NCBI GenBank assembly: GCA_029776225.1
Contig: JAKOTR010000033.1
Location: forward strand, 1 to 64,000
Length of the DNA: 64,000 nucleotides
Source of the DNA: Acidobacteriota bacterium
GTDB taxonomy: Bacteria; Acidobacteriota; Terriglobia; Bryobacterales; Bryobacteraceae
Reading direction: 5' to 3'
Below are positions 42,932-46,736 of the stretch, piece by piece (the first letter of the stretch is position 1; every line of letters starts with the position of its first letter). The notes beneath the pieces were generated by a model. The model was not told the DNA's origin and did no database searches. It saw nothing but the letters and a program-made list of their open reading frames with translations. A program made the position numbers and the translations under genes.

Positions 42932-43924
42932 TTATGCGACGTCGGCGGCCTGCGTGGTTCGGAGGCGGCCCGAGGGAGCCAGCGGTGGCGCGAACAGCCT
43001 TTGCGCTCCGCTGCGATACTCGCGCAGCAGATGGTAGGTCAGTAGTAACTGGGTAAGCGCCAGGGGATCGCTGTGGCGCGTCTCCCCGCGGTCCTGGTAA
43101 CTTCCGAACTGGTCGGCCGGGATCCGGCTTACTCCAGGCAACTGCCGCCAGATCATCTCTTCCAGGTGCGCAGTCTGCTCGGGCGTCACACTGCCGTCGA
43201 TTTCCAGGATGTCGACCGGGCGGCCGGTGTCGCGGGCGAGCGCCAGGCGGATGGCGGAGCTTTCGATCCCGCCGGAACCGCCCGACAGGTCGGGATGGGG
43301 GATGGTCGGCCGCAGAATCAGCCGCACGTCCAGGCGCCCGTCGGCCTCCTCCGGAGGCACTCCGGGCGGCGGGCAAAATTGAACCACGATGTCGGCATAC
43401 TGCCGCTGCGGGCGAATGTAGTCGCGCGAATCGGCTTCCCGCTTTTCCAGCTCGGCGAGCACCTGCTCAACGGAGTAGCCGCGCCTGGCCGTATCGCGGC
43501 GGATCTTCCACACTCTGCGGAGATCCTCGGGCGGCTGCAAGTAAACTTTGACGTCGTAAAACTGCCGCATCGCGGGCGTGTAAAATCCGAGCAGCCCTTC
43601 AACAATCACAAACTCGGCCGGGTTCACATAGGCGGGCCGGAGAAGGCTCCCGGTCGTGTGGTCGTAAACCGGCTTGAGGATCGGCTGCCCGTAATGGAGG
43701 CGCTCCAGGTGCAGTTCGAGAATGTCGAGATAGTTGCAGTCCGGATGAAGCGCGGTGATGTTCATCTCGGCGCGCTGCCGGCGGTCGAACTTGTGATAGT
43801 CGTCCGTGCAGACGCGAGTGACGCACTCGGGGCCGAGCAGGTTGGTTAATCCCTGCGTCAGCGTGCTCTTTCCGGCGGCGCTGTCACCCATAATTCCCAG
43901 CAGGACCGGTCTTCGTCCCGTCAT
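42932..43924 (-). CDS. prk: phosphoribulokinase, class II-like
   Basis: A 330-residue kinase making ribulose 1,5-bisphosphate, the RuBisCO substrate. The P-loop is GDSAAGKST (residues 13-21), followed by CTDDYHKFDRRQR, LKPVYDHTTGS and FVIVEGLLGFY. These strings match the cyanobacterial/plant class, not the roughly 290-residue proteobacterial class with a GSSGAGT-type loop. Ala replaces the redox Cys of the chloroplast P-loop, so thioredoxin control at that site is unlikely. ATG 43924 is used; AGGAG lies at 43936-43940, and GTG 43936 is an unlikely alternative. It follows cbbX by 33 bases. Confidence 0.92.
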   Translation of the reverse strand: MTGRRPVLLGIMGDSAAGKSTLTQGLTNLLGPECVTRVCTDDYHKFDRRQRAEMNITALHPDCNYLDILELHLERLHYGQPILKPVYDHTTGSLLRPAYVNPAEFVIVEGLLGFYTPAMRQFYDVKVYLQPPEDLRRVWKIRRDTARRGYSVEQVLAELEKREADSRDYIRPQRQYADIVVQFCPPPGVPPEEADGRLDVRLILRPTIPHPDLSGGSGGIESSAIRLALARDTGRPVDILEIDGSVTPEQTAHLEEMIWRQLPGVSRIPADQFGSYQDRGETRHSDPLALTQLLLTYHLLREYRSGAQRLFAPPLAPSGRLRTTQAADVA

Positions 43925-43957
43925 AGACAAGAACACTCCTTGCGATACGGCGTTCCC

Positions 43958-44851
43958 TCACGGCTTCGCGCCGGCCTGAAACACTCTGCTCTGGCGAATG
44001 TCGGCCGCGTCAAACCGCAACAGCTCCTCTCTACTGACAAGCCCTCCCCGGCGCACCAGGCGGCTGGCCTGCCGCAGCTTCATGCGGTCGATCGCGTTGC
44101 GGACGCTTCGCGCGTTGGCGAAATGAGGCTGCGCAATCCGCAATTCCAGGTACTCCCGGAACGCCGCTTTCGACTCTTCGTCGAACGTGTACATCTGCCG
44201 GCGGGCCATGAGTTTTGCGATCTCCATCAGTTCGTCGACCGTGTAATCCGGGAAATCCAAATGGTGCGCGATGCGCGAGTGGAGACCGGGATTGGAGTGA
44301 AAAAACGCGTCCATCCGCTCCTTGTAGCCGGCCAGGATCACGACGAGGTTGTCCCGCTGGTTCTCCATGAACTGGAGCAGCATCTCGATCGCTTCCTGGC
44401 CGTAGTCGCGTTCGTTTTCGGCGCGGTACAGATAATAGGCCTCATCGAGAAACAGCACGCCGCCCGCGGCCTTTTGTAACACCTCTTTCGTTTTCGGCGC
44501 GGTGTGGCCCACATACTGGCCGACCAGGTCGCCGCGGCCCGCCACAAGCAGGTGCGGGCGCCGGACGTACCCGAGGCGGTGCAAAATTTCTGCCATGCGC
44601 AGCGCCACGCTGGTCTTGCCAGTGCCCGGCCGCCCGGTGAAGCACATGTGCAGCGAAGGCGGCGCCGCTGTTAGCCCCACCCGCTCCCGCAGGCGCTCCA
44701 CCAGTAGAAGCGCGGCGATCTGCCTGAGCCGGAGCTTCACCGGCGCCAGCCCGATGAGCTCGCGGTCAAGTTCCCCCAACACCTCTTCGACCTTGGACTC
44801 CCTGAGCACGGCATCCAGATCCACGGCGGCGGATTGCTGCCCGCTGGTCAT
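43958..44851 (-). CDS. cbbX: RuBisCO activase CbbX (AAA+)
   Basis: A 297-residue AAA+ ATPase that remodels inhibited red-type RuBisCO by pulling on the large-subunit C-terminus. Walker A is GRPGTGKT (residues 73-80), Walker [12 protein letters not shown], with [21 protein letters not shown] and a FPDYT string typical of Cbb[12 protein letters not shown] is the pore-loop region. Its start overlaps the cbbS stop by four bases. CbbX accompanies only red-type form I enzymes, which agrees with the RuBisCO encoded here. Confidence 0.96.
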
Positions 44852-45273
44852 GATTTGCCGTACCTTTCACCTTCTGGTTGATCCGCCGCGTAGGGGTGAA
44901 TCGTGTAGCGTATCGTGCGCCCCTCCGCTTCCTGCCGGTCGAGGCGGAAGCTCTGTTCGACGGCGGGCCGGTTGACGATGAACGACAGAGCGACGGTCTC
45001 CCGCCCGCGCGTGGAGTCGTAAGCGTTCACCTTGATGTATTCGTTCGGGTGTGCCTTCCGGCAGGCCTCAATCTCGGTCATGATTGTCTCCGGATCGGCC
45101 GTATCGAACATCGGCGCATTCCACATTTCCCAATACGAGTTGCGTGGGTGCGGGCAATCCGTGTACTCGACGTTGATCGCCCAGCCATTGTTCAGGCAAT
45201 ATCCGATCTGCATCCGGATCTGTTCGTCCGTCAGGTCGGGAAGAAACGAAAATGTTCCTTGAGTAAGTCGCAT
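44848..45273 (-). CDS. cbbS: RuBisCO small subunit, red-type form I
   Basis: A 141-residue small subunit: [19 protein letters not shown], then [22 protein letters not shown] and [20 protein letters not shown]. The C-terminal extension ([19 protein letters not shown] to the end) is the hairpin tail specific to red-type small subunits, which fills the central solvent channel. ATG 45273 was chosen, as the protein begins exactly at the conserved MRLTQG; the frame is open further upstream without similarity. It lies 11 bases after cbbL and overlaps cbbX by four. Confidence 0.96.
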
Positions 45274-45284
45274 ATCTGCTCTTC

Positions 45285-46736
45285 TTAGTAAGTTGGCGTA
45301 ACCGCGGGCAAGAAGTCGGCGGTGTCGGTCGATTCGTAATCGAAAGTCACGTTTTTCCAGGTATCCAGCGCGGCGCGCAGGGGAGCACACCAGCGGGCGG
45401 CCCTTTCCAGGATTTCCGGGCCTTCATGCAGGACATCGCGGCCTTCGTTGCGCGCCTGGATCATCGCCTCGACGGCCACGCGGTTGGCCGTTGCGCCGGC
45501 CTCGATCCCCTGCGGGTGGCCGATCGTGCCGCCGCCGAACTGGAGGACGACGTCTTCACCCAGATAGTGCAGCAACTGGTGCATCTGGCCCGCGTGTATG
45601 CCCCCGGAAGCCACAGGCATCACCGCCCGCATGGACGCCCAGTCCTGCTCGAAGAACAAGCCGTGCTCCAGGCGCACCGGGAGGCGCGGCTCGCGCAAGG
45701 TGTCGTAAAATCCGCGGACCATCAATGGATCGCCTTCCAGCTTGCCCACCACCGTTCCTGCGTGTAAGTGATCGACTCCGGCCATCCGCATCCACTTACA
45801 AATCACCCGGAAGTTCATCCCGTGGGTTTTCTGGCGTGCGTAAGTGGAATTGCCTGCACGATGCAGATGCAGGATGACGTCGTTCTTGCGCGCCCACTTT
45901 GCCATCGACTGTATGGCGGTGTAGCCCGCCACGAGGTCGATCATGACGATCACGGAGCCAAGCTGTTTGGCGAAGTCGGCCCGTTCATACATCTCCTCCA
46001 TCGTGCCGGCCGTGATATTCAAATAGTGCCCTTTTACTTCGCCCGTAGCGGCCGAGGCCCGGTTGACCGCCTCCATGCAGTAGAGATACCGGTCTCGCCA
46101 GCGCATGAACGGCTGCGAGTTGATGTTTTCGTCGTCCTTCGTGAAGTCAAGCCCGCCTTTCAAGGCTTCATAGACAACGCGCCCGTAATTCCGGCCCGAA
46201 AGCCCCAGCTTGGGCTTTACCGTTGCGCCCAGCACAGGGCGCCCGAACTTATCCAGCCGCTCCCGCTCCACCACGATGCCGGTCGCCGGCCCCTGAAACG
46301 TCTTCACGTAAGCGGGAGGAATACGCATATCCTCCAGGCGGAGCGCCTTGATCGCCTTGAACCCGAACACGTTGCCGATGATCGAGGCAGTCAGGTTGGC
46401 GATTGAGCCTTCCTCGAACAGGTCGAGATCGTAAGCGATGTAGACGAAGTGCTGCCCCGGTGAATTTGGAACGGCGTCGATACGGTAAGCCTTAGCGCGG
46501 TAGACGTCGCAGGCGGTCAGCCGGTCGGTCCAGACCACGGTCCATGTAGCGGTGGAGGACTCGCCCGCGACTGCCGCGGCGGCCTCGACCGGGTCCACTC
46601 CTTCCTGAGGCGTGAAGCGGAACAGCGCCAGCACGTCGGTGTCCTTCGGAATGTAGCTGGGATCCCAGTAGCCCATCCTGGCGTACGGAATGACCCCGGC
46701 GCCGTAGCGTTCCCTTGCGGTAACGGTGTTGCTCAT
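45285..46736 (-). CDS. cbbL: RuBisCO large subunit, red-type form I (IC-like)
   Basis: A 483-residue large subunit fixing CO2 onto ribulose bisphosphate. Catalytic residues are intact: Lys174 and Lys176 (TVKPKLGLS), carbamylated Lys200 in [10 protein letters not shown], His290/His292 (LHLHRAG), His325 (DHLHAG) and loop-6 Lys332 (VVGKLEGDP). Strings such as [24 protein letters not shown] and [20 protein letters not shown] place it with the proteobacterial IC group rather than green-type or form II/III. ATG 46736 is preceded by a purine-rich AAGGGG. It leads the operon cbbL-cbbS-cbbX-prk-VIT. No cbbR is adjacent. Confidence 0.97.

Follow-up and report, generated by a model that had tools for sequence, protein, structure and literature searches.

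A Calvin cycle cassette and its phosphoribulokinase

The first 64,000 nucleotides of contig JAKOTR010000033.1 from an Acidobacteriota bacterium (assembly GCA_029776225.1), here called the window, contain a compact set of Calvin cycle genes. Four open reading frames (ORFs) lie co-oriented on the minus strand at 42932-46736 in the order cbbL-cbbS-cbbX-prk. ORFs and family models agree on each gene of this cassette, which an earlier note on the same DNA had already proposed. The gene cbbL (45285-46736; 483 amino acids (aa) from the ATG at 46736) encodes the large subunit of a red-type RuBisCO, sister to the proteobacterial form IC. It is followed by cbbS (44848-45273; 141 aa) for the red-type small subunit and cbbX (43958-44851; 297 aa) for the AAA+ activase of red-type RuBisCO. 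The last gene, prk (42932-43924; 330 aa from an ATG, or 334 aa from an upstream GTG at 43936), encodes a phosphoribulokinase (PRK) of a non-class-I, non-canonical clade with the fold of PDB entries 9qkn, 9qko and 9qkp.

CbbL matched NF003252 with 773 bits (cut-off 438), and its best match in the PDB was 25hn, followed by entries that we take to be red-algal and proteobacterial enzymes. CbbS matched PF00101, and its residues 1-138 align to red-type small subunits such as 8bdb and 1bxn, including the C-terminal extension. CbbX scored 467 bits against TIGR02880 (cut-off 459) and 380 and 378 bits against the solved CbbX chains 3syk and 3zuh. On the CbbL tree, the window protein falls into a 10-row clade with the proteobacterial IC enzymes (100/99*), separate from IE and from the Chloroflexota group. 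Hallmarks of red-type IC are likewise present, namely a cbbX that adjoins the RuBisCO genes and the C-terminal extension of the small subunit, and the reading of RuBisCO and CbbX as the IC kind is borne out by the TIGR02880 score and the 10-row clade. The class I kinase that partners them in the proteobacterial form IC operon is, however, missing from the window. The place of the window CbbL is next to IC, away from the side with the Chloroflexota and IE sequences. A 2026 paper describes, in the part available, a group IG of form I that extends across six phyla including the Acidobacteriota (PMC13374853).

The prk product scored 407 bits against the phosphoribulokinase model NF005655 (cut-off 236), which canonical cyanobacterial PRK passes as well, and 36 bits against the class I model NF011997 (cut-off 362). 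Branching with class I enzymes, considered beforehand as possible counter-evidence, was not found, the kinase being separate from class I on the tree. Both motifs highlighted in the earlier note, GDSAAGKST and CTDDYHKFDRRQR, are present, and the length of about 330 residues is correct. Against PDB chains the kinase scored 362 bits with 9qko and 351 bits with 9qkn, compared with 21 bits for the class I chain 1a7j; its description as a member of the cyanobacterial/plant class was right in setting it apart from class I, but canonical cyanobacterial enzymes reach only about 170-180 bits. The AlphaFold model (predicted local distance difference test, pLDDT, 90.9) aligns to 9qkn with Z 40.2 and a root mean square deviation of 1.7 across 305 residues, versus Z 30.0 for the archaeal 5b3f, 25.4-28.5 for canonical PRK, 21.4 for class I and 20-22 for uridine kinases.

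In Foldseek, 9qkn, 9qko and 9qkp are each titled 'cyanobacteria specific PRK'; no paper describing the three entries was found among the openly licensed papers searched. These proteins, from Gloeocapsa and Hyella/Chroococcidiopsis, are 54-56% identical to the window kinase across about 300 residues (Z about 40) and have the same P-loop GDSAAGK and the same CTDDYH and HPDCNY motifs. By sequence and fold match, the window kinase belongs to this NF005655 / 'cyanobacteria specific PRK' clade. Two canonical cyanobacterial rows form a separate branch (100/99* and 100/100*). Within 49 aligned kinase rows, the P-loop, DDYH and K140/R143/D144/R148 are invariant, with one P-loop position (A17) nearly so. 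Sequence and modelled structure thus point to a PRK type distinct from the class I, canonical plant/cyanobacterial and archaeal enzymes; the window kinase would phosphorylate ribulose-5-phosphate (EC 2.7.1.19). A 2023 review lists, in the part available, three PRK types (archaeal, bacterial and plant), and the type of this clade is not among them (PMC9978339). The clade is not restricted to cyanobacteria and has members in Acidobacteriota, Chloroflexota, Methylacidiphilum, Mycobacterium and Allomeiothermus. Because it occurs near the genes for form I RuBisCO in Acidobacteriota, Chloroflexota, Deinococcota, Actinomycetota and further groups, the PDB name is too narrow; a kinase type treated there as cyanobacterial is a widespread bacterial PRK.

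Distribution of the kinase and its RuBisCO partners

A scan of named genomes yielded 570 confirmed kinase loci, and the counts in this paragraph refer to the best 80 of them. CbbL, CbbS and CbbX were all encoded in the fetched stretch at 20 loci, CbbL and CbbS only at 12, CbbL only at 10 and CbbX only, at a contig edge, at two. None of the three partners was present at 36 loci, 32 of them from cyanobacteria. The order cbbL-cbbS-cbbX-prk on one strand was observed in 19 of the 20 full loci (19/80 overall), and prk lies at most 167 bases from cbbX in 17 of the 20. The 32 cyanobacterial loci have no RuBisCO gene in the fetched flanks (at most 8 kb), whereas the window kinase lies inside a RuBisCO cassette. 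Two cyanobacterial genomes that were checked also encode a canonical PRK; the window kinase, in contrast, is the sole PRK candidate in its 97.7%-complete genome (G000; a single match at E 0.001 or better). Searching G000 with a class I kinase recovered only this cassette prk, at 28 bits.

Since these loci had first been chosen by kinase, a second sampling was made by RuBisCO, covering three phyla at a CbbL threshold of E 1e-150 or better. In the Acidobacteriota, six of 396 genomes have a CbbL at this threshold and all six have the window-type kinase. Among the Chloroflexota, 22 of 301 genomes have such a CbbL (19 at 73-82% identity to that of the window, three at 60-63%), and the kinase in these 22 stretches is class II-like in 18 (genomes G358 and G360 included), class I in one and absent from three, which are contigs of 5.5-7.3 kb. 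In the phylum of G361, this genome was the only one of 198 with a CbbL at the threshold. The order cbbL-cbbS-cbbX-prk with a non-class-I kinase recurs in this sampling, some of the kinases being only 39-54% identical to that of the window. Form I RuBisCO in the sampled Acidobacteriota and Chloroflexota is hence usually accompanied by the window kinase type or a close ally, and the window cassette adds a member to a kind of operon already present in several phyla.

The single class I case among the 22 Chloroflexota stretches (L164) combines an IC-type CbbL with a class I kinase (66%) and represents either a transfer or a misbinned contig. Upstream of prk at the acidobacterial locus L022 lies a 441-aa open frame that resembles a transaldolase. 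In Calothrix sp. PCC 7716 (L134), which was included in no tree, the RbcL match contains one TAG and one TAA.

It might be argued that the protein is another pentose-phosphate or nucleoside kinase that merely lies near RuBisCO. The chain of 9qkn is labelled 'Uridine kinase', the uridine kinase fold scores level with class I PRK, and Methylacidiphilum encodes a class I PRK as well. Furthermore, a transcript table of strain SolV, in the part of the source available, calls the gene numbered next to CbxX 'udk', with phosphoribulokinase as its product (PMC3404531). However, the PRK match of 407 bits stands against 106 bits for the uridine kinase model, the latter below its cut-off of 180, and the kinase adjoins cbbX in the 17 full loci mentioned above. 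It is also the only PRK candidate in G000, and class I PRK was not found in G358, G360, G361 and G362. We therefore consider this explanation highly improbable.

Several known systems resemble the window cassette in part. On the Allomeiothermus plasmid pMESIL01 (L114, Thermaceae) a red-type cluster shows the same cbbL-cbbS-cbbX-prk order, but unlike the window cassette it also has glpX, rpe and fba; its CbbL and Prk stand at the base of their clades, and its Prk is about 45% identical to that of the window. A Mycobacterium plasmid operon (L113), which we take to be of form IE type, has a kinase of the same broad clade (52-54%) and cbbLSX in the same stretch. In contrast to the window, prk is grouped there with rpe and tkt in a run of its own on the opposite strand. 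The proteobacterial form IC operons (L109-L112) have a red-type CbbL that is sister to the window group, and the cbbL-cbbS-cbbX order of the window is found in three of the four, with rpe inserted in L110. They differ from the window in that a class I prk of about 290 aa adjoins fbp instead of cbbX, and in the presence of tkt and fba (three of four each).

History of the kinase and the RuBisCO

On the Prk tree, class I and canonical PRK stand outside a 62-row clade that includes the window kinase (90/98, not starred); when the tree is rooted on canonical PRK, the window kinase belongs to a 55-row clade (100/98*). It is sister to the kinase of its nearest acidobacterial relative (L029) in both the first (99/96*) and the second tree (96/92*). 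The same sister relation was found for CbbL (99/86* and 99/90* in the first and second tree) and CbbX (95/94*). These trees indicate that the cassette is common to the window and L029 as one unit. The second CbbL tree was built without L046, L055, L091, L067 and L060 and took in only 14 of the newly fetched CbbL sequences; the second kinase tree excluded 13 named kinase rows as well as every class I and uridine kinase row. A wider set of window, L029, L021 and L048 forms a CbbL clade (99/96*, L137 standing for L021). The best CbbX tree also contains this grouping (77/80, not starred), and for Prk the approximately unbiased (AU) test does not reject it (p-AU 0.12). Together with L030, these kinases also group in the second Prk tree (88/86, not starred). 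The wider groupings and the L029 sister relations therefore disfavour a recent join of kinase and RuBisCO in the window lineage.

These results bear on the proposal of the earlier note that the cassette was assembled, in the window lineage, from a proteobacterial IC RuBisCO with CbbX and a kinase of cyanobacterial or plant type. In its favour, the window CbbL is 76-80% identical to proteobacterial IC enzymes (full-length plasmid matches), versus 71-79% to the red-type Chloroflexota partners of the kinase. Prk also has no class I likeness, and its identity departs from that of CbbL beyond L029. Yet the kinase stands apart from canonical cyanobacterial PRK, the L029 sister relation recurs in three trees, the best CbbX tree recovers the wider set, which Prk does not reject, and the gene order recurs elsewhere. 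Codon usage, which had been suggested as a check, gave no sign of a recent join: the z-scores (cbbL -0.83, cbbS -1.94, cbbX 0.07, prk -0.22) all lie inside the range of the neighbouring genes. The reference consisted of 35 window ORFs picked by a GC-by-position rule, with which a donor of similar composition would escape detection. We regard assembly from these two sources as quite unlikely. A recent transfer was also considered and is unsupported by the codon usage of the four genes.

Congruence of the three genes was assessed on 28 of the 30 loci tried, L037 and L050 having been dropped for short CbbL. Per pair, the gene trees have 11-12 of 25 splits in common, with 1, 3 and 2 strongly supported conflicts. 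In the AU test, every gene rejects the trees of the other two (p at most 0.0031), while the more lenient Shimodaira-Hasegawa test leaves four of the six comparisons unrejected. The likelihood loss under swapped gene trees is far smaller than under three tip-shuffled trees. Full congruence of the Prk, CbbL and CbbX topologies, which had been named as evidence against a mosaic origin, is accordingly rejected by AU on these loci, but the three genes agree on L029 as the nearest relative.

Across the clade, closely similar kinases lie beside very different RuBisCOs. The kinases of L036 and L063 are 80.8% identical, versus 54.2% for their CbbL, of which one is form I'-like and the other red-type, and a single clade for the kinases that accompany form I'-like RuBisCO is rejected (p-AU 8e-40). 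The best PDB match at L036, a CbbL-only locus, is 6ura, which we take to be a form I' enzyme without small subunit. At L047, where CbbS is present and CbbX is absent from the locus, it is 7qsw. One kinase clade therefore serves several RuBisCO forms. Mosaicism is thus real, but older than, and of another kind than, a recent assembly from two sources. Modular exchange, in which the resident kinase of the clade stayed and the adjacent RuBisCO genes were replaced, would account for the L036/L063 identities, the scattered kinases of the form I'-like loci and the AU rejection of congruence. For the window, in contrast, CbbL, CbbX and Prk agree on L029, and any swap would predate the split of the two. 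We consider such an exchange possible but doubtful for the window cassette; it is compatible with the explanation that we prefer. A clear case of kinase/RuBisCO exchange is the acidobacterial locus L039, where prk lies upstream of cbbLSX and CbbL groups with the Thermaceae type, whereas Prk does not. The kinases of the acidobacterial loci L022, L038 and L039 group together.

Our preferred explanation concerns the kinase of the proteobacterial operons. With the CbbL tree rooted on the form I'-like rows, the red-type sequences form a 36-row clade (100/99*), inside which the window group (5 rows, 95/75) and the rows with class I kinase (5 rows, 91/67) make up the 10-row clade. The kinase class changes once on this tree (L167 not counted), class I being a nested state of single origin. 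Placement of class I outside all 31 other red-type rows, L167 among them, is rejected (p-AU 3.7e-6). The two Thermaceae-type rows left out of a narrower 29-row constraint (L114 and L039) have a non-class-I kinase. For these reasons, we read class I as derived, and the 'usual' proteobacterial IC operon is probably the altered one. We thus posit, as the likely though not secure account, that the window holds a compact Calvin cassette with a separate PRK type, a unit common to its nearest acidobacterial relative, and that the class I kinase of IC operons is a later replacement of an older non-class-I kinase. In the window cassette the kinase would convert ribulose-5-phosphate and ATP to ribulose-1,5-bisphosphate, which RuBisCO would carboxylate, with CbbX, as its family suggests, freeing inhibited RuBisCO.

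The same tree could be read the other way round: a class I kinase would already have been present before the window group and proteobacterial IC parted, and the window group would later have regained the other type. Since the rows with class I kinase stand as sister to the window group, only parsimony separates one change from two, and Methylacidiphilum shows that both kinases can coexist. However, this path needs at least two changes where one suffices, and the kinases of window, L029, L021, L048 and L030 group together instead of being nested in one donor lineage. We find it unlikely.

Several observations weigh against a later arrival of class I and a cassette inherited as one unit. The 29-row constraint without the Thermaceae-type pair is not significant by AU (p 0.057), and the class I state rests on four proteobacterial loci, all plasmid-borne, plus L164. 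Most loci were picked by kinase similarity, and the RuBisCO-sampled set is limited to three phyla. Three of the eight placed kinases from that set (L173, L179 and L182) lie outside the 55-row clade, and 'class II-like' is therefore wider than the clade of the window. Methylacidiphilum sp. Yel (L183, L051) has a class I PRK (63% to Phyllobacterium) and the cassette kinase in one genome, and we infer PRK activity for every clade member considered here. Furthermore, the window and L048 are 85.7% identical in CbbL but 62.9% in Prk, the window and the Chloroflexales locus L044 are 75.2% and 65.2% identical, respectively, and the CbbX nearest to that of the window by identity is that of L050 (72%). 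Because identities part in this way beyond L029, inheritance as one unit holds for the window/L029 pair and is only possible for the wider group. In strain SolV, two genes named phosphoribulokinase are transcribed, according to the part of the source available (PMC3404531).

The window combines a RuBisCO closely allied to IC with the kinase type of the other red-type lineages sampled. With a later class I replacement, it would mark the point at which the best-known Calvin operon of bacteria changed its kinase.

Regulation, physiology and genomic surroundings

The P-loop redox cysteine of canonical PRK (Calothrix C19) is Ala in the window kinase, as had been noticed earlier, and is Cys in none of the 62 clade rows. 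The second N-terminal cysteine (Calothrix C41) is kept in 60 of 62. Of the C-terminal regulatory pair, no clade row has both cysteines (C230 position 1/62, C236 position 0/62). Both pairs influence canonical PRK through their redox state, the C-terminal one being important for the CP12/GAPDH complex, according to the part of the source available (PMC9199185). Because both pairs are missing, the thioredoxin/CP12 switch cannot act via the classical cysteines in the window kinase. The claim that regulation must differ stands to this extent. It had been based on the Ala, however, which alone is not unusual, since four class I enzymes likewise have Ala at that position. Kinases without thioredoxin-sensitive pairs are natural test cases for the dependence of PRK control on such pairs. 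Cys39 and Cys63 of the window kinase are both kept in 59 of 62 clade kinases, with Ala at the second position in two canonical rows, and may be a redox or metal pair specific to the clade. Chloroflexales ZM16-3 (L127) encodes a second PRK-like protein, highly divergent and on a long branch (220 bits, below the cut-off), with Thr at the P-loop cysteine position.

More broadly, and with considerable reserve, the window kinase may represent a fourth PRK type, an old, general partner of form I RuBisCO that stayed while forms I', green-like and red-type were exchanged. Class I would then have replaced it once, later and on the branch of proteobacterial IC, the cyanobacterial 'second PRK' would have become detached from RuBisCO, and Cys39/Cys63 may give this type its own redox switch. 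A cyanobacterial paralogue that is sister to all other clade members is not rejected (p-AU 0.09), and its nesting in the kinase trees is therefore not firm.

Evidence for the use of related clusters comes from Thermus brevis PS18, where Calvin-Benson-Bassham enzymes are highly expressed in autotrophically grown cells and the cluster has the same core order, according to the part of the source available (PMC13019369); in our kinase comparison the Allomeiothermus sequence stood in for this strain. Kouleothrix, Oscillochloris and Chlorothrix have been credited with the Calvin cycle from gene content, in the part of the source available (PMC5826079). In the window genome, a search for [NiFe] hydrogenase gave eight matches on five contigs. 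Of the three best-scoring ones, all below curated cut-offs, that on C104 is Vhu-like and has HdrA- and VhuG-like neighbours, that on C21 is also Vhu-like and lies next to a NuoF-like fusion, and that on C73 is sulfhydrogenase-like. Form I CO dehydrogenase was not detected with the one model used (TIGR02416; best 95 bits, cut-off 991). It is possible, as a speculation, that the cassette is facultative, with hydrogen as electron donor or with the cassette serving as a sink for excess electrons.

The cassette promoter would be expected at 46737-47020, between cbbL and a divergent methylmalonyl-CoA carboxytransferase 5S gene. This gene and a VIT1 gene adjoin the cassette, and neither is a LysR-type regulator. 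With the 5S gene as query, seven of 31 genomes matched, the window's own among them. The upstream stretches of four of the six relatives fetched (L212-L215) contained none of the neighbours from the window's far side of the cassette. The genes at 47021-56295 and 39192-40856 (both plus strand) comprise carboxytransferase 5S, carboxylase-type genes, two methylmalonyl-CoA mutase genes and MeaB directly adjoining the cassette, with an ATP-type phosphoenolpyruvate carboxykinase a few genes off on the other side. Together, the carboxytransferase/mutase genes and the carboxykinase look like a propionate route of the Wood-Werkman type. Further along, 36264-37772 (minus strand) encodes a RACo-like protein (PF14574/PF17651), a kind that we take to activate corrinoid proteins. 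Genes for a nickel insertion protein (PF01969) and a lactate racemase N-terminal domain (PF09861) lie about 5 kb apart at 22175-23332 and 28067-29446, both on the minus strand.

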